Source: Seonamhaeicola aphaedonensis (GTDB taxonomy: Bacteria > Bacteroidota > Bacteroidia > Flavobacteriales > Flavobacteriaceae). From it: a DNA stretch of 36,817 nucleotides. The position numbers and the translations under genes were made by a program. Shown here piece after piece: positions 6,067-35,249 of the stretch (its first letter is position 1; the number at the start of each line of letters is the position of its first letter). The stretch spans positions 1 to 36,817 of the forward strand of contig NZ_QRDX01000005.1 in the NCBI RefSeq assembly GCF_003386195.1, in the 5' to 3' direction. The notes under the pieces are model-generated. The model was not told the origin of the DNA and did no database searches. It saw only the letters and a program-made list of their open reading frames with translations.

Positions 6067-6098
6067 TGATTTATCATCAAATTATACTTAGTTTATAA

Positions 6099-6220: not shown

Positions 6221-6265
6221 CAGGATACTACAGGATAGATTAAACTCTATAGTGCTTTATTTTTG
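6221..6265 (+). promoter_or_regulatory. PUL promoter element, copy 1 (no ORF downstream)
   Basis: Two identical CAGGATA 7-mers start at 6221 and 6231, exactly 10 bp apart. The octamer TATTTTTG, a perfect match to the Bacteroidota -7 consensus TAnnTTTG, starts at 6258, 27 bp after the start of the second 7-mer. The second repeat therefore sits where the -33 element would be. The predicted start of transcription is near 6272. No coding sequence follows before the terminator at 6322-6363. Confidence 0.7.
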
Positions 6266-6271
6266 TATTGT

Positions 6272-6363
6272 ATTCGAGTTTAAATTTTTAGAGTAAGTAA
6301 TATTATTTGAGTTAGTCACTGCTCTCCATGATAGGAATATTTCATCATGGAGAGTTTTTTTTG
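6272..6363 (+). ncRNA. Candidate PUL-encoded small RNA (or prematurely terminated leader)
   Basis: This is an inference from flanking signals. A promoter element identical in design to those driving the PUL operons ends at 6265, and a hairpin followed by a run of eight Ts ends near 6362. A transcript of about 90 nt with a 3' terminator stem is therefore expected. No open frame of useful size is present. It could instead be an attenuated leader of the sulfatase-GH78 operon, but that operon has its own copy of the element further down. Confidence 0.4.
6322..6363 (+). terminator. Intrinsic terminator upstream of the sulfatase-GH78 operon
   Basis: An 11-bp perfect stem (CTCTCCATGAT at 6322-6332 against ATCATGGAGAG at 6344-6354) with an 11-base loop is followed by a run of eight Ts. 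It lies between the two promoter copies, so it would end any transcript started at the first and insulate the second. Confidence 0.8.
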
Positions 6364-6382
6364 TTTAAATACCTATCTTATT

Positions 6383-6427
6383 CAGGATAGTGCAGGATAA
6401 AGCAAGCTTAGAAATAAATTAGTTTTA
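6383..6427 (+). promoter_or_regulatory. PUL promoter element, copy 2 (sulfatase-GH78 operon)
   Basis: Identical CAGGATA 7-mers start at 6383 and 6393. TAGTTTTA (7 of 8 to TAnnTTTG) starts at 6420, again 27 bp after the start of the second 7-mer. The predicted transcription start near 6434 gives a leader of about 30 bases to the ATG at 6465. Confidence 0.75.
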
Positions 6428-6464
6428 TACACTATTAAAATTTTTAACCGTTAATAATAATTTA

Positions 6465-9400
6465 ATGTCTAAAACCAATTTATTCTTCGGACTAATATTA
6501 GCAATTGTTAGCTTAAATGTTGGAATTGCTCAAGAAAAACCAAATATTATTTTTATTCTTACAGACGATCAGCGTTTTGATGCCATTGGCTATGCAGGTA
6601 ACCAATTTGTTGAGACTCCTGAAATGGATAATTTAGCAAAATCAGGAACCTATTTTCATACGGCCATTGTTACTACACCAATTTGTGCAGCTAGTAGAGC
6701 GAGTATTTTTACGGGATTACATGAACGTACACATAACTACAATTTCCAAACGGGTAACATTAGGGAGGAATATATGGCAAATTCATATCCAACCTTGCTA
6801 AAGAATAATGGCTATTACACAGGTTTTTTTGGTAAGTATGGTGTGCGCTATAACGGTTTAGAGAAACAATTTGATGAATATGATGAGTATGATAGAAACA
6901 ATCGTTTTAAAGACCGAAGAGGGTATTATTACAAAACTATAGACAATGACACGGTACATTTAACAAGATATACAGGGCAACAAGCATTAGATTTTATAGA
7001 TAAAAATGCTACCAATGAAAAACCGTTTTGTTTATCCCTAAGTTTTAGTGCTCCACATGCCCATGATGGTGCCCCAGAGCAGTACTTTTGGCAAAATACC
7101 ACTAATGGGCTTCTTCAAGATACTACCATTCCAGAACCAGCACTAGGCGATGATAAATATTTCCTAGCGCAACCTAAAATGGTAAGAGATGGTTTTAATA
7201 GATTACGTTGGACTTGGCGGTATGACACTCCAGAAAAATATCAGCATAGTTTAAAAGGGTATTATAGAATGATTTCTGGAATTGATTTAGAAATCAAAAA
7301 AATTCGAGAAAAACTTAAATCAAAGGGTATAGATAAAAATACGGTGATTATCTTAATGGGAGATAATGGTTATTTCTTGGGAGAGCGCCAATTTGCTGGG
7401 AAATGGTTAATGTACGATAATTCCGTTCGTGTACCATTAATTGTTTTTGATCCTAGAGTAGATAAACATCAAGATATTAAAGACATGGTACTCAACATTG
7501 ATGTGCCACAAACCATTGCTGATATAGCTGGAGTAAAAGCGCCTGATACTTGGCAAGGAAAAAGTTTAATGCCTATAGTTAAACAAGAAACTAATAGTAT
7601 TGATAGAGATACTATACTCATTGAGCATCTTTGGGATTTTGAACCTATTCCACCAAGTGAAGGGGTGCGTACAAAAAAATGGAAGTATTTCAGATATGTA
7701 AACGATAAATCTTTAGAAGAGTTATACGATTTAGAGAAAGACCCACAAGAGGTTAAAAATTTAATAGGTAAGAAAAAATACAAAGCTGTAGCCGATAAGT
7801 TAAGAGCTAAACTTGATAAACTTATTAAGAAAAACAGTGATGAATACCGTGCTGCACCAACAGATTTAACAGTTGAATTAATTAGAGAACCACAGTCTGA
7901 TGTAGAAATTTTCGATTTAAAGCCTGAGTTTGGATGGACGGTACCTTTAGGTTCTAAATTCCAAGGGGCTTACCAAATATTGGTGGCATCAAGCCTAAAG
8001 AATATTAATAACAATAATGGCGATGTTTGGGATAGTGGAAGAGTAGCCTCCACAAAATCAACAGATGTTGAGTATGAAGGTAGTCCTCTAGAAATTGGTA
8101 AAAGCTACTATTGGAAAGTTAGAATTTGGGAGCAAGAAAACAGAGTAGTAGATTATTCTGAAGCTCAAAAATTCACCACAGGTAAAAGCGATAGTTATAT
8201 CATTTCAACAGAGAATAAATATAACATTGAAAAGATAAAACCAGCCAAGTTTGAGAAACGCGGTGATGTGTATTTTATGGATTTTGGAAAAGCAGCCTTT
8301 GCAACGATTAATTACACTTATAATGCCAAAACAGCACATACGCTTAAAATAAGAATTGGTGAAATGCTGGATAATAATGGTAATATAAACAGAACCCCAC
8401 CAGCCAAAAGCCATATTCGATATCAAGAAGTACTCGTTAACGTTGTGCCTGGTAAGACCGAATATCAAATTCAAATTTTGCCCGATACACGAAATACACT
8501 TCCTAATAAAGCTATTGCATTGCCTAAAGGTTTTCCTGTATTAATGCCGTTTAGATATGCTGAAGTAGAAGGGGCGCAAGAGCCTTTAAATTCAGATGAT
8601 TTTGAGCAACTAGCACATTTTAGCTATTGGAACGAAGATGCTAGTAGTTTTGAAAGTGATAACGATATTTTAAATCAGGTTTGGGATTTATGTAAATACT
8701 CGATTAAAGCTACAACTTTCAACGGTTTGTACGTTGATGGCGATAGAGAACGTATTCCTTATGAAGCAGATGCTTACTTAAACCAATTAAGTCATTATAC
8801 TACAGACAGAGAATACGCTATGGCAAGACGTACTATCGAGTATTTTATGGAGCATCCCACATGGCCAACAGAGTGGCAGCAACATGTAGCATTATTATTA
8901 TATGCAGACTATATGTATACTGGTAATACCGAGCTTATAGAGCGTTATTATGAGCCATTAAAGCATAAAACACTTTATGAGTTATCAAATGAAGATGGAT
9001 TGATTACCTCTACAAAAGTAGACGAGGCTTTTATGTATAAACTTGGTTTTAAACCTGGTTATCATAAACCTTTAACTGATATTGTAGATTGGCCATCCGC
9101 AGGTTGGGGAGGAGACCCAAATAACAAAGGTGAACGTGATGGATTTGTGTTTAAGCCATATAGCACGGTTATAAACGCATTTTTCTACGAAAACATGAAA
9201 ATTATGGCGGATTTTGCTAAAATTTTAGGTAAAACGCAAGAAGCTTTAGATTTTGAATATAGAGCCGCTAAAGCTAAAAAGGCGGTTAACGAACAAATGT
9301 TTGATAAAGAACGCGGTGTTTATGTAGATGGGATTGGTACCGACCATTCATCACTACACGCCAATATGATGCCTTTAGCATTTGGATTAGTTCCTGAAGA

Positions 9401-9980
9401 ATATTTTGATTCTGTAGTAGCGTTTGTGAAATCTAGAGGTATGGCTTGTAGTGTCTATGGCTCTCAATTCTTGATGGATGGCTTATATAATGCAGGTGAA
9501 GCAGATTATGCTTTAAAATTATTAGCAAGTACAGAAGAAAGAAGTTGGTACAACATGATTCGTGGAGGATCAACAATTACTTGGGAAGCATGGGCGTTAA
9601 GATTTAAAAATAATCAGGATTGGAATCACGCTTGGGGCGCAGTACCTGCAAACGCGATACCTAGAGGATTATGGGGTATAAAACCAAAAACAGCTGGTTT
9701 TGGTATAGCGACTATTAAACCACAAATGAGTAAATTGAAATCTAGTGAGATAACAGTCCCAACAGTTAGAGGACCCATAAAAGCGAGTTACAAGTACAAC
9801 GGTGCCAGATTACAAACTTATGAAATTGAAATTCCAGGTAATATGGTGGCTGAATTTACGTTGAATGATTTAAATGGAAAAGATTTAATTCACAATGGAG
9901 AGAAAGTGCCTTCTGCTTTTGAATATATTAGATTGTCACCAGGTAAACATACGATTCAGCTTAAAATCAATTCGTTTTAA
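6465..9980 (+). CDS. Bifunctional S1 sulfatase / GH78 alpha-L-rhamnosidase
   Basis: A 1171-residue secreted fusion with a signal peptide ending near GIAQ. Residues about 25-460 are a type I sulfatase. The metal ligands begin at TDD (Asp34-Asp35), the formylglycine-forming cysteine is Cys74 in CAASR (an allowed Ala variant of the usual CxPSR), and [13 protein letters not shown] supplies further ligands. Residues about 470-720 are beta-sandwich domains of GH78. Residues about 730-1100 are the (alpha/alpha)6 catalytic domain with [12 protein letters not shown] (Asp760 to Arg763, acid region around Glu762) and the [10 protein letters not shown] base motif (Glu1041). The two halves would remove a sulfate and then the freed rhamnose. 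A comparable sulfatase-GH78 fusion is known from the Formosa agariphila ulvan PUL. The gene heads an operon with the DUF5060 gene 7 bases downstream. Confidence 0.93.
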
Positions 9981-9987
9981 TTAAGTA

Positions 9988-11841
9988 ATGGCAAAACGTT
10001 TTTTCATAATTGTATGTGCTGTTTTAGTCTTATTTTCTTGTGAAAATTATAAAGAAGTAAACATTGATGGGGAATTAAAAAAATGGCATAGAGTTACCCT
10101 AAATTTTGAAGGTCCTCAAACTAGTGAGATGGATGAGAACAATCCATTTTTAAACTACCGTTTGGATGTTACTTTCAACAATGGGGAAGAAACTTTCGTA
10201 ATTCCCGGATTTTATGCTACCGATGGCAATGCAGCTGATACCAGTAGCGATACTGGTAATATCTGGCAAGTTAGATTTATACCAAATATTACAGGAGAAT
10301 GGACGTATGCAGTTTCTTTCAAAGAAGGCGAAAATGTTGCCATAACTGAAGATATTACTAATGCCTCCAGCGCTGGTTTTATGGATGGGCAAACAGGAAG
10401 TTTTGTGATTGCAGAATCTGATAAAACTGGTATAGATAATAGAGCAAAGGGTAAACTGGAATATGTTGGGGAATCCTATTTAAAATTTGCAGACAGCCAA
10501 AAGTATTTTATTAAATTAGGCGTGGATGCGCCTGAGAATTTATTGGCTTACACAGATTTTGATGTATCTACAAATGCACTCGGATTTCAAAAGGCTTGGG
10601 AACCACATGCCAAAGATTTTGAAGAAAGTGCAACACCTTATATATGGCAAGAAACTAAAGGTAAAAACCTACTAGGCGCTATTAATTATTTGGCAAGTGA
10701 AGAGTTAAATGTGTTTTCATTTTTAACCTTTAATGTAGATGGTGATGATAGAAATATCTTTCCGCACCTTTTGAAAGTGCCTATTGAAGACTATGAAAGG
10801 TATGCCAGTGTAAAGAAAAATAAAGAAGCCTGGGAAACCATGTTTCATAAAACCCGTTTCGATGTGTCGAAATTGGATCAATGGGAGCGTGTTTTTGAAT
10901 ATGCCGAAACTAAAGGCATGTTTTTACATTTTAAAACCCACGAAACCGAAACAGATCATTTAATGGACAAAGGTGTGTTTGGTACAGAGGGTAAATTATA
11001 TTATCGTGAACTTATTGCACGTTTCGGGCATCATTTGTCCATGAACTGGAATTTAGGTGAAGAGAATAATCAACCTACAGAGGAAGTATTGAAAGTAGCT
11101 AATTATGTTTCAAAATTAGATGCGTATAAGAGTCATTTAGTGTTGCATACGTTCCCTAATAAAGACGATAGATACCATGATTTTGTTGGCGATAAATCCC
11201 CATTAACAGGAGCATCTCTCCAGTTAAGTCATCCAGAATTTATTGATGTTCATCCAAGAGTTTTAAAATGGCGAAACAAATCAAACGCCACAGGGAGAAA
11301 ATGGGCGTTAGCAGTTGATGAACCAGGGAAAGCTAATATTGCACTGTTACCAGACGATGAAGACCCAGAGCACAATTATGCGAGAGGCAGAGCCATGTAC
11401 GGAACACTGATGGCTGGTGGATATGGTGTTGAGTGGTATTTTGGCTATGCCAGTCCAAATTCTGATTTAACGTGTCAAGATTTTAGAAGCCGTGATTTAT
11501 TTTGGGATCAAAATAAACATGCTTTAGATTTTTTCAACAACTATATCCCATTTTGGGATATGGAACCTAAAGATGATTTGATTACAAGTGAAGCCATAGC
11601 TTATTGTTTTGCAAAAATGGATGAAGTTTACGCAATTTATGTTGAAGCTAATGCAGATAAGGCAACATTAGATTTAGGGAATTCAGGAAAAACGTTCGAT
11701 ATAAAATGGTTTGACCCCAGAAATGGAGGCTCGCTTCAAGAAGGTTCGAATACTTCAGTAATTGCAACGGGTAATGCAGAATTAGGAGCTCCGCCATCTT
11801 CACCCGAAAAGGATTGGATTATTCTGATTCAAAAGATTTAG
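9988..11841 (+). CDS. DUF5060-containing TIM-barrel glycosidase-like lipoprotein
   Basis: A 617-residue lipoprotein with a lipobox ending at Cys18 (LVLFSC). An N-terminal beta-sandwich of the DUF5060 type (about residues 25-130, with FIPNITGEWTYAVSF) precedes a probable (beta/alpha)8 barrel. The barrel has two glycoside-hydrolase-like acidic sites: NWNLGEENN (Glu358/Glu359), a likely acid/base, and WALAVDEPG (Glu445), a likely nucleophile. The C-terminus is a small beta domain like the putative collagen-binding domains that follow such barrels, with KWFDPRNGG. It starts 7 bases after the sulfatase-GH78 stop and is the last gene of that operon. The linkage cleaved cannot be told; a periplasmic or surface exo-glycosidase acting on an ulvan oligosaccharide is inferred. 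Confidence 0.75.
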   Translation: MAKRFFIIVCAVLVLFSCENYKEVNIDGELKKWHRVTLNFEGPQTSEMDENNPFLNYRLDVTFNNGEETFVIPGFYATDGNAADTSSDTGNIWQVRFIPNITGEWTYAVSFKEGENVAITEDITNASSAGFMDGQTGSFVIAESDKTGIDNRAKGKLEYVGESYLKFADSQKYFIKLGVDAPENLLAYTDFDVSTNALGFQKAWEPHAKDFEESATPYIWQETKGKNLLGAINYLASEELNVFSFLTFNVDGDDRNIFPHLLKVPIEDYERYASVKKNKEAWETMFHKTRFDVSKLDQWERVFEYAETKGMFLHFKTHETETDHLMDKGVFGTEGKLYYRELIARFGHHLSMNWNLGEENNQPTEEVLKVANYVSKLDAYKSHLVLHTFPNKDDRYHDFVGDKSPLTGASLQLSHPEFIDVHPRVLKWRNKSNATGRKWALAVDEPGKANIALLPDDEDPEHNYARGRAMYGTLMAGGYGVEWYFGYASPNSDLTCQDFRSRDLFWDQNKHALDFFNNYIPFWDMEPKDDLITSEAIAYCFAKMDEVYAIYVEANADKATLDLGNSGKTFDIKWFDPRNGGSLQEGSNTSVIATGNAELGAPPSSPEKDWIILIQKI

Positions 11842-11950
11842 ATAAGAAGTGTTTACTTCATTCGCAATGAACCAATATTGATGAATGAAGCTTAAAAAAG
11901 AAAACGCTTTATAGGTATGGCTTTATTTAGTCAGTTTTCTTTGGTAATAA

Positions 11951-11995
11951 CATAACAGTACAGGACGGGTTTTGGTGTGCCCTAAATTATCTTTA
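11951..11995 (+). promoter_or_regulatory. PUL promoter element, copy 3 (Idh-GH43-GH3-GH105 operon)
   Basis: The downstream 7-mer CAGGACG starts at 11961. The upstream half at 11951 (CATAACA) is degenerate. TATCTTTA (7 of 8 to TAnnTTTG) starts at 11988, keeping the 27-bp spacing seen in the other copies, and is identical to the -7 octamer of the copy at 35205. The predicted transcription start is near 12002, giving a leader of about 22 bases. The weak upstream half makes this the least certain copy. Confidence 0.6.
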
Positions 11996-12023
11996 GCTTT
12001 TAAATTTCATCTAGATAAAATAC

Positions 12024-12995
12024 ATGAATTCGAGCATTATCAATTGGGGAATTATTGGTTGTGGCGATGTTGCCGAAGTTAAAAGTGGTCCTGCTTTTCA
12101 GAAGCTAAAAGGTTCTTCCTTAGTCGCCGTTATGAGAAGGAATGAAGAAAAGGTAAAAGACTTTGCGAAAAGACATCAGGTGCCAAATTATACAACCAGT
12201 GCTTTAGAATTAATTAATGATAAAAGAGTAAATGCAGTTTACATTGCAACGCCACCTGCTTCACATTTAAGCTATACAAAACAAGCTATTCAAGCAGGTA
12301 AAAATGTCTATTTAGAAAAACCTATGGTACTCAATAGTAAAGAAGCTGATGAGCTTTTGAAGGTTTTAAAAGATAGTAATGTAAAAGTTACGGTGGCGCA
12401 TTATCGTAGAAATTTACCTTTATTTATTAAAGTTAAAGAATTGTTAGATGCCAATGTAATTGGTAAAATATCTTCGGTAGAAATTGATATTGCACAATCT
12501 CAAAACGCCAATTTAATAGCTAAAACTGATGAAAATTGGAGACTTAATCCAGAAATTTCGGGTGGTGGTTATTTTCATGATATAGCACCACATCAAATAG
12601 ATTTAATGTATCATTATTTTGGAGCTGTTTCTAAGATTACTAAGGGGAGTGTTCCCGAAGATACGAATCCGATGGACTGGGTTATTGGTGAAGTTCAATT
12701 TGAAAATGGTGTACATTTTAAAGGAAGTTGGAATTTTGCAGCTGAGGCAGATAGCGACAGGTGTGTAATAAAAGGGGAAAAGGGTGCCATAACATTTTCT
12801 TTTTATAGCGATGAAATAAGAGTTGAAACCGATAATAAAACGGAAACTTTCAATTTTGAAAATCCAAAACATGTGCAACAACCTATGATAGAACAAGTGG
12901 TAGGTTATTTTCTAGGACAAAATGAAAACCCATGTTCGGTAGAAGAAGCGGCAGTGGTGACTAAAATTATGGATACCTTTTGCGGAATTGAATAA
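12024..12995 (+). CDS. Gfo/Idh/MocA family NAD(P)-dependent oxidoreductase
   Basis: A 323-residue cytoplasmic protein with no signal peptide. The N-terminal Rossmann fold shows WGIIGCGDVAE (GxGxxA type nucleotide loop) and NVYLEKPM (the EKP motif of the family). The C-terminal half is the alpha/beta substrate domain, with GGGYFHDIAPHQIDLMYHYFG carrying the conserved active-site histidine region. Members oxidise or reduce sugars and sugar derivatives. It is the only clearly cytoplasmic enzyme of the window and heads the operon of GH43, GH3 and GH105, so it may process a monosaccharide released from the polymer, such as a uronate-derived keto sugar, rhamnose or xylose. The substrate is unknown. 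Confidence 0.9.
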   Translation: MNSSIINWGIIGCGDVAEVKSGPAFQKLKGSSLVAVMRRNEEKVKDFAKRHQVPNYTTSALELINDKRVNAVYIATPPASHLSYTKQAIQAGKNVYLEKPMVLNSKEADELLKVLKDSNVKVTVAHYRRNLPLFIKVKELLDANVIGKISSVEIDIAQSQNANLIAKTDENWRLNPEISGGGYFHDIAPHQIDLMYHYFGAVSKITKGSVPEDTNPMDWVIGEVQFENGVHFKGSWNFAAEADSDRCVIKGEKGAITFSFYSDEIRVETDNKTETFNFENPKHVQQPMIEQVVGYFLGQNENPCSVEEAAVVTKIMDTFCGIE

Positions 12996-12999
12996 GATC

Positions 13000-14349: not shown

Positions 14350-14372
14350 AACTATACAAACATTCAATACTA

Positions 14373-16634: not shown

Positions 16635-16639
16635 ATATC

Positions 16640-17785: not shown

Positions 17786-17807
17786 AACTATAATTTTCAT
17801 AATATAG

Positions 17808-17834
17808 AACGGGAACATGTTGTTCCCGTTTTTT
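17808..17834 (+). terminator. Intrinsic terminator between GH105 and the HTCS gene
   Basis: A 10-bp perfect stem (AACGGGAACA at 17808-17817 against TGTTCCCGTT at 17821-17830) with a 3-base loop runs into a T-tract. It ends only 14 bases before the TTG start of the regulator gene, so it may also act as an attenuator for that gene. Confidence 0.9.
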
Positions 17835-17848
17835 GGCTATAAACAGTT

Positions 17849-20800
17849 TTGAAACTATTTAAACTTAGAAATATTTGTTTTTTGTTCGCTCTTGTTTTGT
17901 TGCATTTAGGGCAAGCACAACATACAGATTATAATTTCAGTCATATTACTGATGCAGATGGATTGTCTCAAAACTCCATTATGGCTGTTCATCAAGATAA
18001 TTTGGGTCAGATTTGGATTGGTACAAAAGACGGGTTGAACAAGTACAATGGTACTGAGTTTACGGTGTACCGTCACGAAAAGGATAACCCTACTTCAATT
18101 AGTAACAATGGTATTGAGTACATAGAGCAAGATAGCTCTGGTTTTATATGGGTTGGTACGGCTTTCGGTTTAAATAAATTTGATCCAAAAAAGAATATTT
18201 TTAAATCCTATTTTTTAAATAATAATCAATCTGTATTAGGTAATAATATGATTATAGCCATTAGGCAACTATCTAATCAAGAAATATGGGTGTGTCATTT
18301 TGGTGGGGTTTCAATCTATGATGCTTCAAAAGATAATTTTTTTAGAATATCAAACTTACAATTACCTTCATGCATTGTCGAAACAAAAGATGGAGCTATA
18401 TATATTGGTACGAATAAAGGATTGTATCAGTTTTTTAGAAAAGATAATGGTACATTTCAAATGGAGTTAATACCGGACTCTAAAGGCTTTAATATAAACG
18501 ATTTACTAGAATCTAAAAATGGCAATATTCTGCTCGCAACAAAAACCAAAAGTGTTCTAGAATATAATATTCATAACAAGAAAATTCAACCCTACTTTAA
18601 AGAATCTGAAATAGATAAAAAAAGTAAAAACGCCAGAAAACTTATTTATGATGATAACGGTCTTTTATGGGTTGCTACTTTTAACGGGCTTCATATTGTT
18701 GATGAGGATAGAAATATAAATGCGCTATATCATGATGGGAACAATAACAAATCTTTAAATGATAATTTTATAAAAACAGTATTTAAAGATAATATTGGAA
18801 CCATTTGGGTGGGCACCTACTATGGAGGCTTAAATATTTATAATAGATTTAATAATAACTTTGTTAATATAACACAGAATTCCTACGAAAAGGGCTTAAG
18901 TTTTAGGGTTGTAAGCTCCATAGAAAATTATAAAAATTTAATGCTATTTGGTACAGAAGGAGGTGGAGTTTCCATATTAAATAAAGATACAAATACAACG
19001 GTTCATTTAACATCCAAAAACAATTCAGAATTAAAAAGCGATAACATAAAATCGTTATGCGTAACTACCAATGATTTTCTTTGGATTGGTACTTTTGATA
19101 AAGGAGCTTTTGTATACAATTTAAAAACACAACAATTTATAAGTAATGCTTTTCCTGATAATTTAAAGGACTTTATTAGTGAAGCAGGGGTATTAAAACT
19201 TGTGCAATATTCTGATGATACTATTTTGATGGGAACCAATGGTAAAGGGCTGCTTAAATACAACTTTAAAAAGAAAAACTTTTTCCTTTTTAACGCCAAA
19301 TCTCAACCTGTTGGTCTTACCAATAGTAATATCAAGACTATAATGGTAGATAGCGCTAAAAATATTTGGTTAGGAACAGTACGCGGTTTAAACTGTATTA
19401 CTCCTAATAATAAAGTAAAAAATTTTGTTTATGAGAATGATTCTAAAATTAAGTTTGAAATAAACACCATTTATGAAGATGTTAATAAAGACCTATGGAT
19501 TGGTACTGTTGAAGACGGTTTATTTAAATTTACAAACAACCAGTTTGAATATATAGATCTAAAAGTAGGTAACGAAAAAATTGATGGTATAAGAAGCATT
19601 GTTAGAGCTGATGATAACAGCTTTTGGATGAGTACCTTTACACAAGGTATTGTGAAATATAATTTTACGAGTAAGACCGTAGTAGCGCATTATACCATAA
19701 AAGAAGGTTTACCAAGTAACGAGTTTAATAGAGATGCCGGTTTGAGATTGGGTGATGACTTTTATTTTGGAGGGACATCAGGGGTAACTGTATTTAATGA
19801 AGGTAAAATTGTGAAAAACCATTATGCACCACAAGTGATACTTACTGATTTCAAAATTAATAATCAGTCGGTTTTGGTGAATGATACACATAAGGTGCTT
19901 CAAAATACAATAAGTTATACCAAAAGTATAGAATTGCAACACCATCAAGGAAATTTTAGTCTGTCGTTCTCTATACCAAGTTTTGTGAATTCAAAAAGTA
20001 ATAGTTATAAATACCGTCTTAAGGGTTTAGAAACCAATTGGAATGAAACACGCAATAATGAAGCATCTTATACCATACAAAAGCCGGGAGACTATGTTTT
20101 TGAAGTTAAAGGTGTTAATAGCAATGGTGTTATAAATGAAACACCAACAACATTAAATATTTATGTTAGGCCTGCGCCTTGGTTTACTTGGTGGGCATAT
20201 GCTATATATATATTAATAGTTATTTCAATAATTTATTACTTATATAGTATTTCAAAATCTCGAACCAAATTAAAACACGAATTAGAATTAGAGCATTTAG
20301 AAGCAGAACAAATAAAAAAGATAAACCAAGCTAAACTTGAGTTTTTTACCAATATATCTCACGAGTTTAGAACACCTTTAACGTTAATCTTAGGGCCATT
20401 ACAACAAATTTTAGATAACTATCAGGGGAGTAGTAGTATATATAAAAAGCTTCAGGTTATTAAAAGAAATAGTAATCATCTGTATCAACTTATCAATAGG
20501 TTAATGGATTTTAGAAAATACGAAAGCAATCAAATGGCATTGCAAGTAGCAGAGCATAATATAGTAGATGTCTTAAAGAAGGTTTTCGAATCTTTTTCAG
20601 ATTATGCTATTAGTGAAGGCTATCAATATAATTTTGAAACTCCTTCAAATGAAATTCGGCTTTACATAGATGAAAATAAGTTAGAACGCGTGTTCTTTAA
20701 TTTAATTTCTAATGCTTTTAAGTATACAGATAGTCAAGGTCAAATAACCGTTAAAATAAAGGAGGAAGGAGAAATGGTATTGCTTCTGGTTGAAGATGAT

Positions 20801-21910
20801 GGTATTGGTATTCCTGAAGCGTATTGGGGAAAAATATTTGACCGCTTTTTTGAGTTAGTTGATAATAATGCTGCCGATAGAACCCTTAAAAAAGGGACAG
20901 GAATAGGTTTGGCTATTGTAAAAAATATAGTAGAGTTACATAAAGGTAAAATTAGCGTAGCGTCAAATTCTGAAGGAAAGGGTTCGGTTTTTAAAGTTGA
21001 ATTATTTAAAGGGGCATCACATTTCAAACCCCATGAAATTACTGAGACTAAACATATTAAAGAAGAAATTGATTTTTATCAAAATCAGTTAGAAAGCACA
21101 GATGTCCCTTTTGAAGGAAACTTTTCTTCAAAAATTCGTTCCGATAAAAAAATGTCAATTCTATTGGTAGAAGATAATGAGGAACTCAGAATGTTTATGC
21201 ATAATATTTTGATAGACGACTATAACGTATTTGAGGCTGAAAACGGTAAGATAGCCTTTAAAATGGCCGTTAAAGAACCTATAGATTTAATTGTAAGCGA
21301 TGTAGTCATGCCAATAACTACAGGTTTAGAGTTGTGTAAATTAATTAAGGAAGATATTCGCACCAGCCATATTCCGGTTATATTATTAACTGCAAAATCA
21401 GATATAACACATAAAATAGAGGGTCTACAAAGTGGTGCTGATGATTATATTAGCAAGCCTTTTAACGTTCAAGAATTAAAGTTGCGTATTAATAATAGTT
21501 TAAAATCCATTCAAAACATTAAATCTAATCTAAATACACATGATGTGTTTAAGGTAGAAGATATACGAATGTCGTCTTTAGATGAAACTTTGTACAATAA
21601 GGCACTAGATATCATTGAGCAAAACATAAGTGATTACAATTTTGATATCCCCTTCTTTTGCGAAGCATTAGGGGTTAGCAAATCTGTATTATTTACCAAA
21701 TTTAAAGCTTGGGCAGATTATACCCCTAAACAATTTATACAACATATAAGGCTTATCCGTGCAGCCCAACTTTTAGAAAAGGGTAAAGCCAACATTAACC
21801 AAGTTTGTGCTAAAGTAGGTTTTAAAGACCAAAAATACTTCAGCAAAAGTTTTAAAGCTAAGTTTGGAAAAACGCCAAGTGAGTATGCGCAGTCCTTTTT
21901 AGAGAATTAA
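17849..21910 (+). CDS. Hybrid two-component system regulator (HTCS), AraC-type output
   Basis: A 1353-residue single-protein sensor and transcription factor. After a signal peptide (to about LGQAQ) come about 14 Reg_prop repeats of the form IWIGTxxGLNKYN, enough for two seven-bladed propellers (to about residue 700). Then follow a Y_Y_Y domain, one membrane span (about Trp778 to residue 801), a histidine kinase with the phospho-acceptor His838 in ISHEFRTP and an ATPase with GTGIGLAIVKNIVELH, a receiver with Asp1151 in LIVSDVVMP, and a C-terminal AraC HTH ending PSEYAQSFLEN. The start is TTG: an in-frame TAA lies 9 bases upstream, and the next in-frame ATG would remove the signal peptide. It probably senses a periplasmic ulvan oligosaccharide and activates the PUL. 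None of the six CAGGAT elements lies before it. Confidence 0.95.
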   Translation: MKLFKLRNICFLFALVLLHLGQAQHTDYNFSHITDADGLSQNSIMAVHQDNLGQIWIGTKDGLNKYNGTEFTVYRHEKDNPTSISNNGIEYIEQDSSGFIWVGTAFGLNKFDPKKNIFKSYFLNNNQSVLGNNMIIAIRQLSNQEIWVCHFGGVSIYDASKDNFFRISNLQLPSCIVETKDGAIYIGTNKGLYQFFRKDNGTFQMELIPDSKGFNINDLLESKNGNILLATKTKSVLEYNIHNKKIQPYFKESEIDKKSKNARKLIYDDNGLLWVATFNGLHIVDEDRNINALYHDGNNNKSLNDNFIKTVFKDNIGTIWVGTYYGGLNIYNRFNNNFVNITQNSYEKGLSFRVVSSIENYKNLMLFGTEGGGVSILNKDTNTTVHLTSKNNSELKSDNIKSLCVTTNDFLWIGTFDKGAFVYNLKTQQFISNAFPDNLKDFISEAGVLKLVQYSDDTILMGTNGKGLLKYNFKKKNFFLFNAKSQPVGLTNSNIKTIMVDSAKNIWLGTVRGLNCITPNNKVKNFVYENDSKIKFEINTIYEDVNKDLWIGTVEDGLFKFTNNQFEYIDLKVGNEKIDGIRSIVRADDNSFWMSTFTQGIVKYNFTSKTVVAHYTIKEGLPSNEFNRDAGLRLGDDFYFGGTSGVTVFNEGKIVKNHYAPQVILTDFKINNQSVLVNDTHKVLQNTISYTKSIELQHHQGNFSLSFSIPSFVNSKSNSYKYRLKGLETNWNETRNNEASYTIQKPGDYVFEVKGVNSNGVINETPTTLNIYVRPAPWFTWWAYAIYILIVISIIYYLYSISKSRTKLKHELELEHLEAEQIKKINQAKLEFFTNISHEFRTPLTLILGPLQQILDNYQGSSSIYKKLQVIKRNSNHLYQLINRLMDFRKYESNQMALQVAEHNIVDVLKKVFESFSDYAISEGYQYNFETPSNEIRLYIDENKLERVFFNLISNAFKYTDSQGQITVKIKEEGEMVLLLVEDDGIGIPEAYWGKIFDRFFELVDNNAADRTLKKGTGIGLAIVKNIVELHKGKISVASNSEGKGSVFKVELFKGASHFKPHEITETKHIKEEIDFYQNQLESTDVPFEGNFSSKIRSDKKMSILLVEDNEELRMFMHNILIDDYNVFEAENGKIAFKMAVKEPIDLIVSDVVMPITTGLELCKLIKEDIRTSHIPVILLTAKSDITHKIEGLQSGADDYISKPFNVQELKLRINNSLKSIQNIKSNLNTHDVFKVEDIRMSSLDETLYNKALDIIEQNISDYNFDIPFFCEALGVSKSVLFTKFKAWADYTPKQFIQHIRLIRAAQLLEKGKANINQVCAKVGFKDQKYFSKSFKAKFGKTPSEYAQSFLEN

Positions 21911-21912
21911 GT

Positions 21913-22871: not shown

Positions 22872-22935
22872 AATACTAAAGTACTGAGGGTAGTTTTTGC
22901 TTAAGCAATTAGCACAACTCGGATTAATAATGATG

Positions 22936-22966: not shown

Positions 22967-23076
22967 GAATCGAAGTGGGGCTAATAAAATTGATGTTTAA
23001 TATGCTCTTTGGAACGTTTAATAATTCCATATGAATATCTTCTTGTAACGTGCAATAATGGATTAAAAAAACAGCT

Positions 23077-24651: not shown

Positions 24652-24683
24652 GATTATAAAAGTTAAAGTAGTTTTTTATACCA

Positions 24684-24719
24684 AAACAGTCGGGTTTTTT
24701 TAAATCTGACTGTTTTTTT
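24684..24719 (+). terminator. Intrinsic terminator after the PL28-like gene
   Basis: A 14-bp stem (24684-24697 against 24102 bases further numbered 24702-24715), containing two G-T pairs around the ACAGTC / GACTGT core, is followed by a T-tract. It lies 32 bases after the lyase stop and just ahead of the next promoter element. Confidence 0.85.
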
Positions 24720-24731
24720 GTTTAGAAGTGT

Positions 24732-24776
24732 CAGGACAATGCAGGACAGTAATGCTACACTATATTATTAATTTTA
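24732..24776 (+). promoter_or_regulatory. PUL promoter element, copy 4 (S1 sulfatase-GH2-DUF4955 operon)
   Basis: Identical CAGGACA 7-mers start at 24732 and 24742. TAATTTTA (7 of 8 to TAnnTTTG) starts at 24769, 27 bp after the start of the second 7-mer. The predicted transcription start near 24783 leaves a leader of about 12 bases to the ATG at 24795. Confidence 0.75.
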
Positions 24777-24794
24777 ACTCGCTAAAACAAAGAG

Positions 24795-26525
24795 ATGAAA
24801 CCTGTTAAAATGTCTATTATTTTACTGTACTTGTTGGTGTTAAGTTGCGGTAATAAAACTAAAGTGGATGTCAATTCCAAAGCAAATAGTTCAATATTAA
24901 ATCTTCAAGAACGCCCAAACATACTTTGGTTAGTTACCGAGGATATGGGGGCTTATATTCCACCTTTTGGTGATTCAACCGTAGTAACACCCAATTTAAG
25001 TAAACTAGCAAGTGAAGGCGTTATTTATCCAAATGTATATTCCACCTCTGGGGTTTGCGCACCAAGTAGAGCAGCCATAGCCACAGGCATGTACCCATCC
25101 AGTATTGGCGCTAACCATATGCGTACCAATTCGTATACCGAAGTAACAGGTTTACCCAAATATGAAGCGGTGCCACCAGCAGATGTTAAAATGATAAGTG
25201 AGTGGATGCGCACACAAGGGTACTATTGTACCAATAATCTTAAAACAGATTATCAATTTAAACACCCTGTTACGGCATGGGACGAAAGTAGTCCCTACGC
25301 GCATTGGAGAAATCGTGAAAAAGATCAACCATTCTTCGCAGTCTTTAATTTTACCGACACCCACGAATCGGGTCTGTTTGAGCCCTATGGACATAGGTAT
25401 ATAGAAACACGACATTATAAAGCTGGCGATAGAAACTATCAATGGGGTAAAGGCAATAAAACGGAAGAAGAAACATCTGTATATCTTCCAAAAGACACCG
25501 AATTTAATATTCCACCATACCTTCCAGATACCGATGTTGTAAAGCGAGATATGTGGAAACTTTATAACAATATTGGAGAAATGGATCATCAAGTGGGAGC
25601 CATATTAAAACAGTTAGAAGCTGATGGTTTGCTTGAAAACACCATTATTTTTTTCTATGGAGACCATGGTGGCCCATTACCTAGAGAAAAACGTTTGATT
25701 TACGATTCCGGTTTAAATACCCCCATGATTATTCGGTTTCCAAATAAATTAAAAGCAGGTACGAAAGATGAGCAACTCATCAGTTTTGTAGATTTTGCAC
25801 CGACATTATTATCACTTATAAATGAAGAACCAAAACCATACATGCAAGGGCAAGCCTTTTTAGGCAAGTACAAGGCAGAAGAACGAACATATATTCATGC
25901 AGCAGCCGACAGGTTTGATGGCTTTACCGATGCCATAAGAGCCGTTCGTAATAGCAGATTTAAATATATTCGTAATTACAGACCAGAACAGGGCTATTAT
26001 TTGCCAGTAGAATACCGTGAGAGAATCCCGACAATGCAAGAGTTATTAAGACTAAAAGCAGAAGGGGAATTAAATGATATTCAAATGCAATGGTTTAGAG
26101 AACAAAAACCCAAGGAAGAATTGTTTGATTGTGAAGCTGACCCATATGAACTCAATAATCTTGCAGCAAACCCAGAAAATCAAGAAAAACTTAAAGAATT
26201 AAGTGCTGAAATGGATCGGTGGTTGGCAGATATTGGAGACCAACCAAACCTTGATGAAGCAAAACTCATTGAACAATTGTGGTCTGGTAAAAGTACACAA
26301 CCAGTAACATCACAACCCATTATTACCTCTGAAAACAGCTTTGTAAAAGTGACTTGTGAAACCGAGGGTGCTTCTATAGGCTACAAAATTGTTGGTATAG
26401 ATGGTAAAACTCCAAATTCATGGGAAGTATATCAAAATCCTATTCAATTACCTGAAGGTTCTAAACTCATAGTTCAAGCACATCGCATTGGTTTTATGCC
26501 AAGCGAAGTTGCAGAATTTAACTAA
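24795..26525 (+). CDS. S1 family sulfatase lipoprotein (S1_8-like)
   Basis: A 576-residue formylglycine-dependent sulfatase with a lipobox ending at Cys18 (LLVLSC). The activation site is Cys88 in CAPSRAAIATG. Metal ligands are expected at TEDMG (Glu49-Asp50, where most members have two Asp) and at FYGDHGG. GANHMRT after the active site is a pattern of the S1_8 branch. The C-terminal 70 residues form a small beta domain of the chitobiase-like type (ISENSF... to the end). A sulfatase of this subfamily belongs to the ulvan PUL described in Formosa agariphila. It probably removes sulfate from oligosaccharides in the periplasm or on the surface. It heads an operon with the GH2 gene 29 bases downstream. 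Confidence 0.92.
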   Translation: MKPVKMSIILLYLLVLSCGNKTKVDVNSKANSSILNLQERPNILWLVTEDMGAYIPPFGDSTVVTPNLSKLASEGVIYPNVYSTSGVCAPSRAAIATGMYPSSIGANHMRTNSYTEVTGLPKYEAVPPADVKMISEWMRTQGYYCTNNLKTDYQFKHPVTAWDESSPYAHWRNREKDQPFFAVFNFTDTHESGLFEPYGHRYIETRHYKAGDRNYQWGKGNKTEEETSVYLPKDTEFNIPPYLPDTDVVKRDMWKLYNNIGEMDHQVGAILKQLEADGLLENTIIFFYGDHGGPLPREKRLIYDSGLNTPMIIRFPNKLKAGTKDEQLISFVDFAPTLLSLINEEPKPYMQGQAFLGKYKAEERTYIHAAADRFDGFTDAIRAVRNSRFKYIRNYRPEQGYYLPVEYRERIPTMQELLRLKAEGELNDIQMQWFREQKPKEELFDCEADPYELNNLAANPENQEKLKELSAEMDRWLADIGDQPNLDEAKLIEQLWSGKSTQPVTSQPIITSENSFVKVTCETEGASIGYKIVGIDGKTPNSWEVYQNPIQLPEGSKLIVQAHRIGFMPSEVAEFN

Positions 26526-26554
26526 ATCATTTTTTAAAAAACAATTCAAAATAA

Positions 26555-29152: not shown

Positions 29153-29214
29153 TCATTAATTTTAAAATAATTTAGAAAGAAAACATTACCATCACAAAGT
29201 GATACTTTAAAACT

Positions 29215-31518: not shown

Positions 31519-31541
31519 GAGGTTTAATATTTTAAAATATG

Positions 31542-31570
31542 AAAGGGTGTCTTAAAGAAGTTACCCTTTT
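31542..31570 (+). terminator. Intrinsic terminator after the DUF4955 gene
   Basis: A 7-bp stem (AAAGGGT at 31542-31548 against ACCCTTT at 31563-31569) with a 14-base loop is followed by a short T-tract. It is moderately strong, and the next promoter element follows immediately. Confidence 0.7.
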
Positions 31571-31576
31571 TATATT

Positions 31577-31621
31577 CAGGACTATACAGGATAGGTAATC
31601 GTTAAACATTATTTAATTTCA
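31577..31621 (+). promoter_or_regulatory. PUL promoter element, copy 5 (GH106 gene)
   Basis: CAGGACT starts at 31577 and CAGGATA at 31587, 10 bp apart. TAATTTCA (6 of 8 to TAnnTTTG) starts at 31614, 27 bp after the start of the second 7-mer. The predicted transcription start near 31628 gives a leader of about 19 bases. Confidence 0.7.
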
Positions 31622-31646
31622 AACTTTATTCAAATAAGATTATAAT

Positions 31647-34600
31647 ATGAGATTTTTAGCGGTAATTTTTAGTTTTTTTTTAGTAATAATTTTAAGTTGT
31701 AATTCCAGTAAAGATGAAGTCGTATCGTTAGTTGATACCTCTCCAACATTTCAAGAATTATCCAAAGGCTTTAAAACTCCAGATAAGCAATACCGCCCAG
31801 AAACTTGGTTTCACCTAATAGGTAATAATATAAGTAAAGAAGGATTAACCCTAGATTTAGAAGCCATAAAAGCCGCGGGTTTGCAAGGTATTCATTTATT
31901 CAACAAAGCAGGACAACCATATCCAAATGTTGAGCCTATAAAAATTTTATCACCAGAATGGGAAGACATGATTAGGCATGCTGCCGATGAATGTAAACGC
32001 TTAGGGCTAAAATTCACCATGCAAAATTGCCCAGGGTGGTCTATGACTGGCGGCCCTTGGGTGCCCGTTGAAGAAGCACAACGCGAAGTGGTAGAAACTA
32101 CGTATCACATTTCTGGTGGTAAGAATTTCAATGAAATTTTAGAAATCGATTCCTTGTATCACACAGCAGATTACAATTATCAAGATATTCAAGTATTGGC
32201 ATTCCCGACAGTCGAAGGTGATGATTTAAAACCTTTAAATCCTTCAAGCTTTGAAACCAATAATACAATTGTACCTTGGGGAGCTATTTTTAATCCTAAT
32301 TCAAAACTCACCATTACCCGCACCACAACCCGGTTAAACATGCCATTAGACGTATACAGAGCTAGTGGTATTTCAAAAGTAAATGATCAAGATACTTGGG
32401 TAAAACTAAATTATGAGGCACCTGTTACCTTAAGAACTATAACCTTCCCACAAATACGCCATATGACTATGGGTACAGAATATCCTGTTATAGATGTTAA
32501 TATTCAAGTTGAAGCATTAATCGATAACAAACGCGCAGAAATAACCACGCTAAATATTCCTGATGCCAACTGGAATGACCGCCGAAAACACCTTACACTA
32601 ACAATTCCTGAAACTACTGCAAAAGAGTTTATTTTTACCTTTAAAGGTAGTCATAATATCGCTCCAGAATTTATTCGTTTAAATTCACAACCAAGATTGC
32701 ATAATCACGAAGCCAAAGCAGCAAAAGTATTACGCCGTTTAGAAAAAGATGTAGAAATTGAATATGCCAAAAATACCGTTATTAAGGCCAATTCAATTAT
32801 TAACATAACCGATAAAATGACTGCCGATGGTAGACTCACTTGGGAGGTTCCAGAAGGGAATTGGACGGTGGTTCGTTTTGGACATATTAATATGCGATTA
32901 ACTAATAAACCTGCAGTTCCAGAAGCTACAGGTTGGGAATCGAGTAAATTAGATAAAATTACTATTGAAAACCATTTAAGAAAAGGTATGATTGGTAATT
33001 TAATAAAAGATGGTGGGCCTATTGGTGATGGGAAATTGCATGGTTTGTTGATTGATAGTTGGGAAAGTCATGTGCCAACATGGACTATGAATTCTGAAGA
33101 TTTATTTTCAGAATTTGAGACACGACGTGGCTACAGCATGAAAAATTACATGCCAGCAACCATGGGTTACATTGTTGAAAGCCCTAAAATAACTACTAAG
33201 TTTTTGAGGGATTTACGTCATACTATGGACGAAGTGTTTATTGATAATTTCTTTAAACATTTTGCAACGATAGCACACGAAATGGGAGCCGAGGTATATA
33301 CCGAAGGGGCAGGAGGAGAAGTGCTACCTATAGACCCCATGCGTTATTATGGTGTAAGTGATATCCCGATGACGGAGTTTTGGTATCCAAAAGCGCCTTC
33401 TGATCAAAATGAATATGCAAAACCAATATACAATGCAGCTTCTGCAACGCATTTGTACAACAAACCAAAATTAGCAGCAGAGGCTTGTACACAAGTAGGT
33501 GTAAAATGGAATGAACATCCGTTTTCTGTAAAATATTTAATTGATTATAATTTTGCTAAAGGTGTAAATCATTTGGTATTTCACACGTTTTCACATACGC
33601 CACAAACCGATGTTTACCCAGGTTCTAGTTTTGGGGGGCGAATTGGTTTTCCATTAGTTCGAGAGCAAACTTGGTGGCAATACATGCCAGATTGGGTAGA
33701 TTATTTGTCTAGAAATCAATATGTATTGCAACAAGGAGAATATGTTGCTGATGTGCTTTGGTATTATGGCGACCATTATGAACGTCCACCGTTTGATTTG
33801 GATGAGTTTCCTAAAGGTTATCGATTTGATTATTTAAATGCTGAAATTTTACAAGAAAAACTAAGCGTGAAAAACGGTAAAATTCATGTTGAAAATGGTG
33901 GTGATTACAAAGTTATCCAATTACGAGATTCTAAGAATATGTTGCTTTCAACCGCTCAAAAACTAAAGGAGTTGGTTGAAAATGGCGCGGTGATTTTAGG
34001 TGATAAACCCAAAGATTCACCAAGTTTAATGGATGATGAAAATGATGTAAAAGAATTACTTGCTATTTCTGATTTGCTTTGGGGAGATACTGAAAGTGGC
34101 ATAAAGCAAGTAGGTAAAGGCCGTGTGTATTGGGGGAAAACATTAGATGAGGTGCTTGAGACAGAACGTATTGCTCCAGATGTAATTGTACCTGAAGGTT
34201 TAGATATTAATTGGATTCACCGAAAAACTAATGATGCCGATATTTATTTTGTGGCTTCAAAAGAGAATAATCCGATTGACGTTGCTTTAAGTTTTAGAGT
34301 ATCAAATAGAACACCTCAAATTTGGGATGCTTTTACAGGGCATCAGCAAAATGTTAAAATTTGGCAAAAAGAAAACGATAGAATTAATATAGTTGTGTCA
34401 TTACCGTCAAATGGAAGTGCGATTATTGTGTTTTCAAAAGAAAATAATCCCCCTTTGGCTTCAAAAGTAACTCACAATAATAAGGTAATTTTAAATACCG
34501 AAACGGGTTGGTTTCAAAAGCATCTAGAAGATGAGCATATTCAAATTGACTTCAAAGAAGATGAATTTATGGCTTCAACATCAGGTGATTTTGTATTTTA

Positions 34601-35111
34601 TCAAAATGATAATACCTTCAAAAAATCTATTGTTTTAAAAGAAACTCCATACCAAACCAATTGGAAGTTAGCTTTTGAAGACGGCTGGGATACCCCAAAA
34701 TCAATAGAAGCTACAGAATTAAAATCGCTTACTGAGTTTGAAAACGATGCCGTAAGACATTACTCAGGAACAACAATCTATTCAAAAGTTATACATATTG
34801 AAAGCTTAGGTAAACATACTGTATTGGATTTGGGTGAAGTTGCGAACATAGCAGAACTTTGGTGCAATGGTAAAAAAGTAGGTGTAAAATGGGCGCCTCC
34901 TTTTGAGTTTGATATTAGCGAGTATGTTAAGAAAGGGGAAAACGAACTTGAGATTAAAGTGACTAATACATGGCGAAATCAATTAATTTTTGATAACTCC
35001 CGACCTAAAGGACAAAAGAAAACATGGACCACTGCAGGGCCTAAACCCAATGAAACTGAATTAGAAGCTTCTGGTTTAGTCGGTCCTGTAGTTATTAAAA
35101 GTTTACTCTAA
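31647..35111 (+). CDS. GH106-like alpha-L-rhamnosidase lipoprotein
   Basis: An 1154-residue lipoprotein with a lipobox ending at Cys18 (VIILSC). The N-terminal region has the GH106 pattern TWFHLIGNNISKEGLTLDLEAIKAAGLQG in a (beta/alpha)8 barrel interrupted by beta domains, with TMQNCPGWSMTGGPWV. Acidic candidates for catalysis are Glu473 in LIDSWESH and Glu553/Glu558 in YTEGAGGE, matching where GH106 enzymes keep their acid and base. The C-terminal 120 residues are a GH2-like sugar-binding jelly-roll (VLDLGEVANIAELWCNGKKVG, ELEIKVTNTWRNQLI). It would release rhamnose from ulvan oligosaccharides, complementing the GH78. It has its own promoter element and forms a single-gene unit. Confidence 0.9.
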   Translation: MRFLAVIFSFFLVIILSCNSSKDEVVSLVDTSPTFQELSKGFKTPDKQYRPETWFHLIGNNISKEGLTLDLEAIKAAGLQGIHLFNKAGQPYPNVEPIKILSPEWEDMIRHAADECKRLGLKFTMQNCPGWSMTGGPWVPVEEAQREVVETTYHISGGKNFNEILEIDSLYHTADYNYQDIQVLAFPTVEGDDLKPLNPSSFETNNTIVPWGAIFNPNSKLTITRTTTRLNMPLDVYRASGISKVNDQDTWVKLNYEAPVTLRTITFPQIRHMTMGTEYPVIDVNIQVEALIDNKRAEITTLNIPDANWNDRRKHLTLTIPETTAKEFIFTFKGSHNIAPEFIRLNSQPRLHNHEAKAAKVLRRLEKDVEIEYAKNTVIKANSIINITDKMTADGRLTWEVPEGNWTVVRFGHINMRLTNKPAVPEATGWESSKLDKITIENHLRKGMIGNLIKDGGPIGDGKLHGLLIDSWESHVPTWTMNSEDLFSEFETRRGYSMKNYMPATMGYIVESPKITTKFLRDLRHTMDEVFIDNFFKHFATIAHEMGAEVYTEGAGGEVLPIDPMRYYGVSDIPMTEFWYPKAPSDQNEYAKPIYNAASATHLYNKPKLAAEACTQVGVKWNEHPFSVKYLIDYNFAKGVNHLVFHTFSHTPQTDVYPGSSFGGRIGFPLVREQTWWQYMPDWVDYLSRNQYVLQQGEYVADVLWYYGDHYERPPFDLDEFPKGYRFDYLNAEILQEKLSVKNGKIHVENGGDYKVIQLRDSKNMLLSTAQKLKELVENGAVILGDKPKDSPSLMDDENDVKELLAISDLLWGDTESGIKQVGKGRVYWGKTLDEVLETERIAPDVIVPEGLDINWIHRKTNDADIYFVASKENNPIDVALSFRVSNRTPQIWDAFTGHQQNVKIWQKENDRINIVVSLPSNGSAIIVFSKENNPPLASKVTHNNKVILNTETGWFQKHLEDEHIQIDFKEDEFMASTSGDFVFYQNDNTFKKSIVLKETPYQTNWKLAFEDGWDTPKSIEATELKSLTEFENDAVRHYSGTTIYSKVIHIESLGKHTVLDLGEVANIAELWCNGKKVGVKWAPPFEFDISEYVKKGENELEIKVTNTWRNQLIFDNSRPKGQKKTWTTAGPKPNETELEASGLVGPVVIKSLL

Positions 35112-35204
35112 TTGATTATTTAGTAATTGTTTTTTGTTTACTTCATACTTAGTTTTATTTAAAATTTACATATTGTCGATTTCACTATGGATATGCCTGA
35201 TGTT

Positions 35205-35249
35205 CAGGAGGGTACAGGATACCATTTCATGCATGTTGAAATATCTTTA
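35205..35249 (+). promoter_or_regulatory. PUL promoter element, copy 6 (propeller lyase gene)
   Basis: CAGGAGG starts at 35205 and CAGGATA at 35215, 10 bp apart. TATCTTTA (7 of 8 to TAnnTTTG) starts at 35242, 27 bp after the start of the second 7-mer. The predicted transcription start near 35256 gives a leader of about 41 bases to the ATG at 35297. Confidence 0.72.

Follow-up and report, generated by a model that had tools for sequence, protein, structure and literature searches.

A tandem CAGGAYA promoter element was examined in a 36,817-nt stretch of DNA from the marine flavobacterium Seonamhaeicola aphaedonensis (start of contig NZ_QRDX01000005.1, here C5; hereafter the window), which encodes an ulvan-type polysaccharide utilization locus (PUL). 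The element is a real, conserved promoter code, and we consider it likely to be the operator of a one-component GntR-family protein, RhaR, that would activate sigma-A promoters from the −33 position and so wire ulvan and rhamnogalacturonan PULs to L-rhamnose. Control by hybrid two-component systems (HTCSs) is the usual model for PULs; judged from sequence comparison, the reader of this motif is very probably the GntR-type RhaR and not the HTCS encoded next to the genes. That RhaR acts as an activator is probable and is the least certain step.

Like members of the AraR subfamily, RhaR combines an N-terminal GntR winged helix with a C-terminal LacI/periplasmic-binding-protein-like sensor. In the proposed mechanism, two such helices would lie head to tail in successive major grooves on one face of the DNA, with the second repeat in place of the sigma-A −33 element and at a fixed distance from the −7 box TAnnTTTG. 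L-rhamnose or an early catabolite, freed from ulvan and reaching the cytoplasm, would cause RhaR to recruit RNA polymerase; gene content suggests L-rhamnose as the inducer. The predicted targets comprise the rhaEW-rhaI-rhaK operon and rhaM as well as sulfatase, rhamnosidase, lyase, and SusCD operons for rhamnose-containing glycans.

Tandem sites and promoter geometry

The strict repeat CAGGA-N5-CAGGA occurs five times in the 36.8-kb window, compared with a mean of 0.01 in 100 dinucleotide shuffles, none of which reached five (0/100). At all five strict sites, a box of the form TAnnTT(T/C)(A/G) starts exactly 27 nt past the start of the second repeat. Direct reading confirms the six tandem pairs and octamers listed in an earlier note on this DNA, which had been made from the letters alone (Table 1). 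Its further claim that five copies lie 50–85 bases before a first codon agrees with the 53–82 nt measured from the start of the second 7-mer, while the copy at 6221 lies 234 nt from the next open reading frame (ORF) and is followed by a non-coding stretch. Scanning the window with a position matrix built from sites that include the window copies returned these six sites and no others (0 in five mononucleotide shuffles); no site was found upstream of the HTCS gene.

Comparison with Seonamhaeicola sediminis (G374) revealed that the boxes at 6221, 6383, 11951, and 24732 are all kept. At 11951, the pair and its octamer are identical amid diverged spacer and flanks, which supports this degenerate copy as real; at 24732, box and octamer are kept while the spacer has diverged. 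Orthologous promoters of the 31577 and 35205 copies were not found in the G374 stretches compared.

Across the whole 3.5-Mb host genome, which served as a held-out test, 13 strict repeats were counted versus three for the reversed pattern. Eight lie outside the window, six of them intergenic and all six with a box at +37, counted from the first repeat; five of these boxes read TAnnTT(T/C)(A/G), and the sixth is the off-consensus TAAAATTG. The remaining two repeats, C1:85876 and C3:348247, fall within or at the start of ORFs. Host copies elsewhere precede the L-rhamnose mutarotase gene rhaM (Pfam), the rhaEW-rhaI-rhaK operon, a SusC-like gene, genes for GH2-type enzymes, and a hexuronate gene set that encodes mannonate dehydratase as well as glucuronate isomerase. 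The "PUL-wide promoter code" of the earlier note holds for much of the ulvan PUL and is too narrow in scope, given the copies at the rha operon, rhaM, and the hexuronate set. The host rha operon carries a variant site, CGGTATAGTACAGGATAC..TACTTTTG, before rhaEW; RhaEW scores above its NCBIfam cut-off, and the best match of RhaI, TIGR02629, stays below its own (506 of 647 bits).

Alignment of 12 own sites (the 11 strict intergenic copies and the degenerate 11951) confined the information to CAGGAYA-nnR-CAGGAYAG and TAnnTT(T/C)R, with no third conserved element and no upstream 21-bp partner in the profile. Bacteroidota sigma-A promoters carry a −33 TTTG element. At the 12 own sites, the second repeat (GGAYAG) occupies those positions, and TAnnTT(T/C)(A/G) is found at 11 of them, with TAAAATTG at the twelfth. 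This box is of the sigma-A type that has been mapped in Flavobacterium psychrophilum, according to the accessible text of PMC9723704. Among 32 sites chosen regardless of box (unique sites from 30 of 47 matched loci), 13 have TAnnTT(T/C)(A/G) at +37, and any other single offset has at most one. A matrix scan of the analysed own-genome stretches added eight further candidates, of which L016:1598, L016:10732, L016:16522, and L093:15965 have a good box.

A GntR-type regulator and the rhamnose genes

A search of 397 family genomes for the pattern CAGGA-N5-CAGGA-N22-TAnnTTT retrieved the full motif from 60 of them, with 139 matches against two for the reversed pattern; 40 chosen regions among these matches were examined with 20-kb surroundings, together with 18 regions from other genomes, G213 among them, chosen around the regulator. 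A GntR-family protein recurs beside the sites (11 of 48 clustered sources). RhaR-type proteins (E ≤ 1e-100, a count that may include paralogs) occur in 79 of the 397 genomes, and 59 of these carry the motif, a co-occurrence with a Fisher p of about 1e-51, uncorrected for phylogeny. The sole motif genome lacking such a protein, G020, has a 44% relative adjoining its rha genes. In the 20 tabulated genera with mixed RhaR presence, none of the RhaR-less species has the motif, including G213 of the host's own genus. A relaxed pattern matched 18 of 20 RhaR-positive, strict-negative genomes and none of 20 RhaR-less ones (reversed control, 0/40). L-rhamnose isomerase (RhaI) is encoded in 92 genomes, all 60 motif genomes included; among these 92, the motif is present in 59 of 75 with RhaR and in 1 of 17 without.

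For 61 strict TAnnTT-box sites in the 40 relatives' loci, the first gene belongs to a cluster (each named from one member) of SusC (14), sulfatase/GH78 (12), GH106 (4), PL28 ulvan lyase (4), PL22 (3), GH28 (3), or PL11 (2), among others; for four sites no ORF begins in the next 450 nt, and one lies inside a same-strand ORF. Beside one rha locus, L097 (same strain as L150), a CAGGA site precedes a fructose-1,6-bisphosphatase gene (NCBIfam), which would fit gluconeogenesis from rhamnose; in L144, a site precedes a 335-aa ORF whose start is nearly identical to that of the L097 enzyme. The sites of G172, G347, G189, G227, G382, and G011 carry a stretch resembling CGAAA(A/T)CG between repeat and −7 box, as if a LacI-type regulator had been added; in G172 and G189 this stretch is a palindrome.

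The host's own RhaR matches the GntR winged helix PF00392 (41.3 bits, cut-off 27) and, at its C terminus, Peripla_BP_3 (28.6 bits, cut-off 26.5; 37.6 for the ortholog in G431), and no NCBIfam family above its cut-off. Peripla_BP_3 stays below cut-off in the cousin-clade protein of L260 (23.5) and in L017 (21.3). Among the best 80 of 500 RhaR loci, a site is present in 78, about ten of the 80 being strains already in the matrix, so that the test is not fully independent; mononucleotide shuffles of these loci gave 0/1600. The same 80 include 43 divergent rhaR/rhaEW pairs (≤900 nt apart), and in 39 of these a site lies no more than 600 nt from rhaR; in the others the site lies at about 540–780 nt (L149, L155, L178) or only about 8 kb away (L158). 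Copies at rha operons mostly read C(A/G)G(T/C/G)A-N5-CAGGAYRS, with the downstream repeat stricter, and a set of Flavobacterium rha loci has AAGGA as first repeat and an off-consensus +37 box (TTATTTTA). In five loci (L095, L096, L097, L098, and L099), two RhaR-type genes stand in tandem beside the rha operon.

A different word accompanies a cousin regulator. In 7 of the 17 RhaI genomes without RhaR, the rha locus encodes a cousin GntR of 40–47% identity with the helix ISRDT(V/I)V(K/R)AY. At six of the seven loci (L260–L264, L266), the second repeat is CAGAA with the TA-octamer at +27, and these sites precede rhaEW, SusC, GH106, and other genes. Four sites (L260, L261, L263, L264) have CAGAA in both repeats, and L266 has CGGAA/CAGAA; other cousin-clade sites have a degenerate first repeat (CTTAA, CATAA, CAAAA), and L265 has only CAGAA/TGGAA. 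The identical change in both repeats beside the cousin clade suggests that equivalent domains read them and points to the GntR protein as the reader. A single helix residue (E59 versus V) was considered as the whole determinant and rejected, as paralogs with Y, F, or Q there also lie near CAGGA sites. In the accompanying survey, in which 170 regulator matches were reduced to 140 distinct ones, the strict rule assigned a site to 59 of the 117 regulators with E59; many of the missing sites probably stand more than 900 nt away or have a box that departs from the consensus.

Outside the family, the relaxed pattern was found in 82 of 295 genomes of the class, mostly once or twice each and mostly background-like, reversed controls matching too. 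G431 and G427 stand out, and G431 is convincing. This genome, from another family, has a 48% RhaR ortholog in its rha locus, a CAGGA pair before the rha gene run, and rows of three to four CAGGA units before a SusC gene and before a gene adjoining another SusC. Its five arrays contain two to four units at 10-bp steps, the last unit 27 nt before a TAnnTT box (start to start). For G427, a 44% RhaR is accompanied by several sites whose boxes lie near +27; G508 gives a 37–39% RhaR match, and G684 gives none at 1e-15.

Related GntR proteins appear beside other words. In L021 (host C1) and L100 (G213), the start of a GntR paralog, which we take from its neighbours to belong to a galactose cluster, bears TATATTTG, preceded at about 36 nt by a direct repeat of 10 bp, CTAGTAGGGTCTAGTAGG or a close form. 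It is possible, though we would put it somewhat short of an even chance, that the GntR-LacI sensors of Bacteroidota form a class whose members read two to four head-to-tail words, each one helical turn from the next and the last of them in place of the −33 element, and that the recognition helix sets the word of each clade (CAGGA for RhaR, CAGAA for cousin RhaR, CAGAAC for XylR-like, and CTAGTAGG for GalR-like proteins). Marine PULs would then be wired to cytosolic monosaccharides and not to oligosaccharide sensing by HTCSs.

Alternative readers and modes of action

Several observations weigh against RhaR as the activator reading this motif. GntR operators are usually palindromes (GT...AC), and the proposed operator is instead a direct repeat with a 10-bp period, RhaR–DNA binding being predicted from sequence. 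Some copies may be read by paralogs, which occur in the host genome (L017, L020, and L094) and as tandem pairs in relatives, and the neighbour of the hexuronate-operon copies is a GntR of only 35% identity. The RhaR group has no sharp boundary, since 42–46% relatives in G020 and G064 retain the SRDT(V/I)E helix, along with some CAGGA words. Of the 32 sites chosen regardless of the box, 19 lack it or have an off-consensus form; among the further own-genome candidates, L014:5402 and L020:11352 have no TA at the box, and L014:19783 and L017:7720 are weak or overlapping. Genome-wide counts of CAGAAC-N4-CAGAAC (8 in the 7 cousin-clade genomes, 10 in 15 with RhaR, 6 in 15 with neither, and 2 in 10 other RhaI genomes; reversed, 12 in 47) do not discriminate, and the CAGAA evidence thus rests on location in rha loci. 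Finally, in L272, L274, L276, L277, and L280, a related GntR beside a presumably xylulokinase-like gene has its repeat, CAGAACAGAACAGAAC, immediately past a TATATTTG-like −7 box, a position that suggests a repressor.

This last arrangement fits a reading in which RhaR, bound to the same operator, would repress by covering the −33 region until rhamnose releases it. The described AraR is indeed a repressor, acting on palindromes and released by its sugar. The precedent is recorded in a PDB entry named "Arabinose metabolism transcriptional repressor". Even so, repression by RhaR appears unlikely to us: the 12 own sites and those of a distant genome all keep one distance to the −7 box, which a blocker would not need, and the sites replace the −33 element, so that without the regulator there is no obvious sigma contact. 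An activator that touches polymerase would explain why the phase to the −7 box is fixed, why the −33 element is replaced, and why two or more near-equal words recur one turn apart; a repressor would need none of this. Another reading keeps RhaR at the rha operon and has the PUL copies read mainly by a GntR paralog (C5:162340 beside the second HTCS, C1:127196, or c5b at C8:157480), with several sensors sharing one word. Both C5:162340 and c5b lie near sites, relatives of c5b immediately precede hexuronate genes, from which a site separates them, and the SRDTVE helix is kept in C5:162340 and C1:127196. The presence of RhaR-type proteins in 59 of the 60 motif genomes is a weak point against paralogs, as the count may pool them, and we regard this division of labour as a serious possibility, albeit an improbable one.

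The earlier note had read the element as the site of an activator, perhaps the HTCS. A shared, activator-like element in fixed phase to the −7 box that serves much of the PUL is upheld here; the HTCS as its reader is not. The window HTCS lies in the PUL, and two other HTCSs are found near sites in the host genome, but HTCS repeats are spaced by about 21 bp (as far as the available text of PMC3878776 goes), against the 10-bp repeat and −7 box that alone make up the information profile here. An HTCS occurs in only 2 of the 40 relatives' 20-kb loci, and the motif precedes rha operons and tracks the GntR protein and RhaI through the 397 genomes; binding by the HTCS is accordingly very improbable. 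The note's other suggestion, CAGGA as the −35 element of a dedicated extracytoplasmic function (ECF) sigma factor, would account for the fixed spacing to the −10 region, yet we give it almost no credence. The octamers TAnnTTTR are of sigma-A type and lack the CGT that the flavobacterial ECF-type motif has in its −10 (PMC9723704, accessible part). Two near-equal repeats, up to four in G431, with the upstream one nearly as conserved, also speak against an ECF −35 element, as does the change of word beside the cousin GntR clade; no search for ECF genes was made. Equally hard to credit is a single-component AraC regulator (C5:40425-41300), which adjoins the C5:38443 site and whose E ≤ 1e-100 orthologs (15 of 397 genomes) all fall in motif genomes; it was rejected as the reader, being absent from 45 of the 60.

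Window features and known systems

Besides the genes in Table 1, the window encodes SusC, SusD, GH43, GH3, GH88, and GH2 proteins (Pfam), and a protein whose weak match to the ulvan-lyase beta-trefoil stays below Pfam's cut-off. Contig C8 ends inside an ORF past a SusC-like gene, and C5, where the window starts, opens with the end of another reading frame. Matching sites are 52 kb apart in G374 and 51 kb in the host genome, which suggests that C8 and C5 are neighbours; given this adjacency, the C8:158856 site may head an operon that includes the window SusC.

Table 1. Proposed operators, genes past them, and other features of the window, with the host RhaR gene. Positions are those of the window unless a contig is named.
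Feature	Position	Strand	Remarks
Tandem box CAGGATACTACAGGATAG (proposed RhaR operator)	6221..6238	+	Octamer TATTTTTG 6258-6265; heads short non-coding stretch; kept in G374
Tandem box CAGGATAGTGCAGGATAA	6383..6400	+	Octamer TAGTTTTA 6420-6427; promoter of sulfatase-GH78 gene 6465-9980; kept in G374
Degenerate tandem box CATAACAGTACAGGACGG	11951..11968	+	Octamer TATCTTTA 11988-11995; promoter of GFO/IDH/MocA gene 12024
Tandem box CAGGACAATGCAGGACAG	24732..24749	+	Octamer TAATTTTA 24769-24776; promoter of sulfatase gene 24795
Tandem box CAGGACTATACAGGATAG	31577..31594	+	Octamer TAATTTCA 31614-31621; promoter of GH106 rhamnosidase gene 31647
Tandem box CAGGAGGGTACAGGATAC	35205..35222	+	Octamer TATCTTTA 35242-35249; promoter of BNR_4 gene 35297
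Candidate small RNA	6266..6360	+	Downstream of 6221 promoter; conserved stretch with TTATTTGAGTTAGT, then terminator-like hairpin and T-run
Sulfatase + GH78 rhamnosidase fusion	6465..9980	+	Pfam; first gene past two tandem promoters
GFO/IDH/MocA oxidoreductase	12024..12995	+	Pfam; first gene past degenerate site
HTCS (Reg_prop, Y_Y_Y, HisKA, HATPase, receiver, AraC-type helix-turn-helix)	17849..21910	+	Pfam
Sulfatase	24795..26525	+	Pfam; first gene past 24732 site
GH106 alpha-L-rhamnosidase	31647..35111	+	Pfam; first gene past 31577 site
BNR_4 protein, runs off window	35297..36817	+	Pfam; first gene past 35205 site
RhaR, own copy	near G000:C5:192504-193544		Outside window; GntR + LacI-like sensor

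The 6221 promoter may drive a candidate small RNA, located ahead of the 6383 promoter, which would be rhamnose-regulated. Its 6266–6360 region has 93% identity to G374 over 90 nt (L225, about 6984-7073). A similar TTATTTGAGTTAGT element lies between two sites in L062 (about 9915-10000) with a different hairpin, and the element at L056:17312 has no clear site before it. A terminator scan with a loop limit of 8 called none in this region, and an Rfam search over 6000-6600 left the candidate unmatched, its twelve matches at E ≤ 1 all falling in 6000-6212 and below gathering scores.

No account of the CAGGA motif or its GntR regulator was found in open-access literature (titles and abstract openings; subscription papers lie largely outside this set), and the available text of PMC12125979, PMC9296495, PMC8511951, and PMC5306329 describes neither. 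A published ulvan biosensor relies on the E. coli rha promoter (PMC12858550, accessible part). The present analysis offers a testable regulator, operator, and inducer for the use of ulvan and rhamnogalacturonan by flavobacteria. Two words one turn apart that replace the −33 element would form a grammar by which genomes can be scanned to predict rhamnose-glycan operons, and the cousin-clade word would open a way into the DNA-recognition code of a little-studied GntR group.

Among known systems, the AraR subfamily (B. subtilis AraR) resembles RhaR in domain order, sugar operons, and helix-turn-helix (phmmer 1.1e-6 to the AraR DNA-binding domain). In contrast to AraR, a repressor of palindromic operators, RhaR would have a one-turn direct repeat fixed to the −7 box as its operator and would probably activate, and a direct-repeat operator would be unusual for a GntR protein. 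The accessible portions of PMC4494728 give AraR-type proteins the domain plan seen here and describe GntR operators as usually palindromic, with NanR, NagQ, and FarR as direct-repeat exceptions. These three share the direct repeat with the proposed RhaR operator but belong to the FadR/HutC subfamilies and have other repeat sequences, and no fixed promoter position is described for them in that text. The Zobellia GntR repressor of alginate catabolism is, going by its title, another GntR protein in a flavobacterial glycan system. The regulons of Bacteroides RhaR (AraC family) and HTCSs likewise combine rhamnose catabolism or PUL control with direct repeats; they differ in DNA-binding domain family and, in the available text of PMC3878776 and PMC3870299, in the 21-bp periodicity of their repeats. 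Within the accessible text of PMC3870299, where the string "Flavobact" does not occur, DeoR-family RhaRs are assigned direct repeats of 10–11 bp periodicity at rhamnose operons, so that they resemble the system proposed here in operator and targets and differ from it in protein family.

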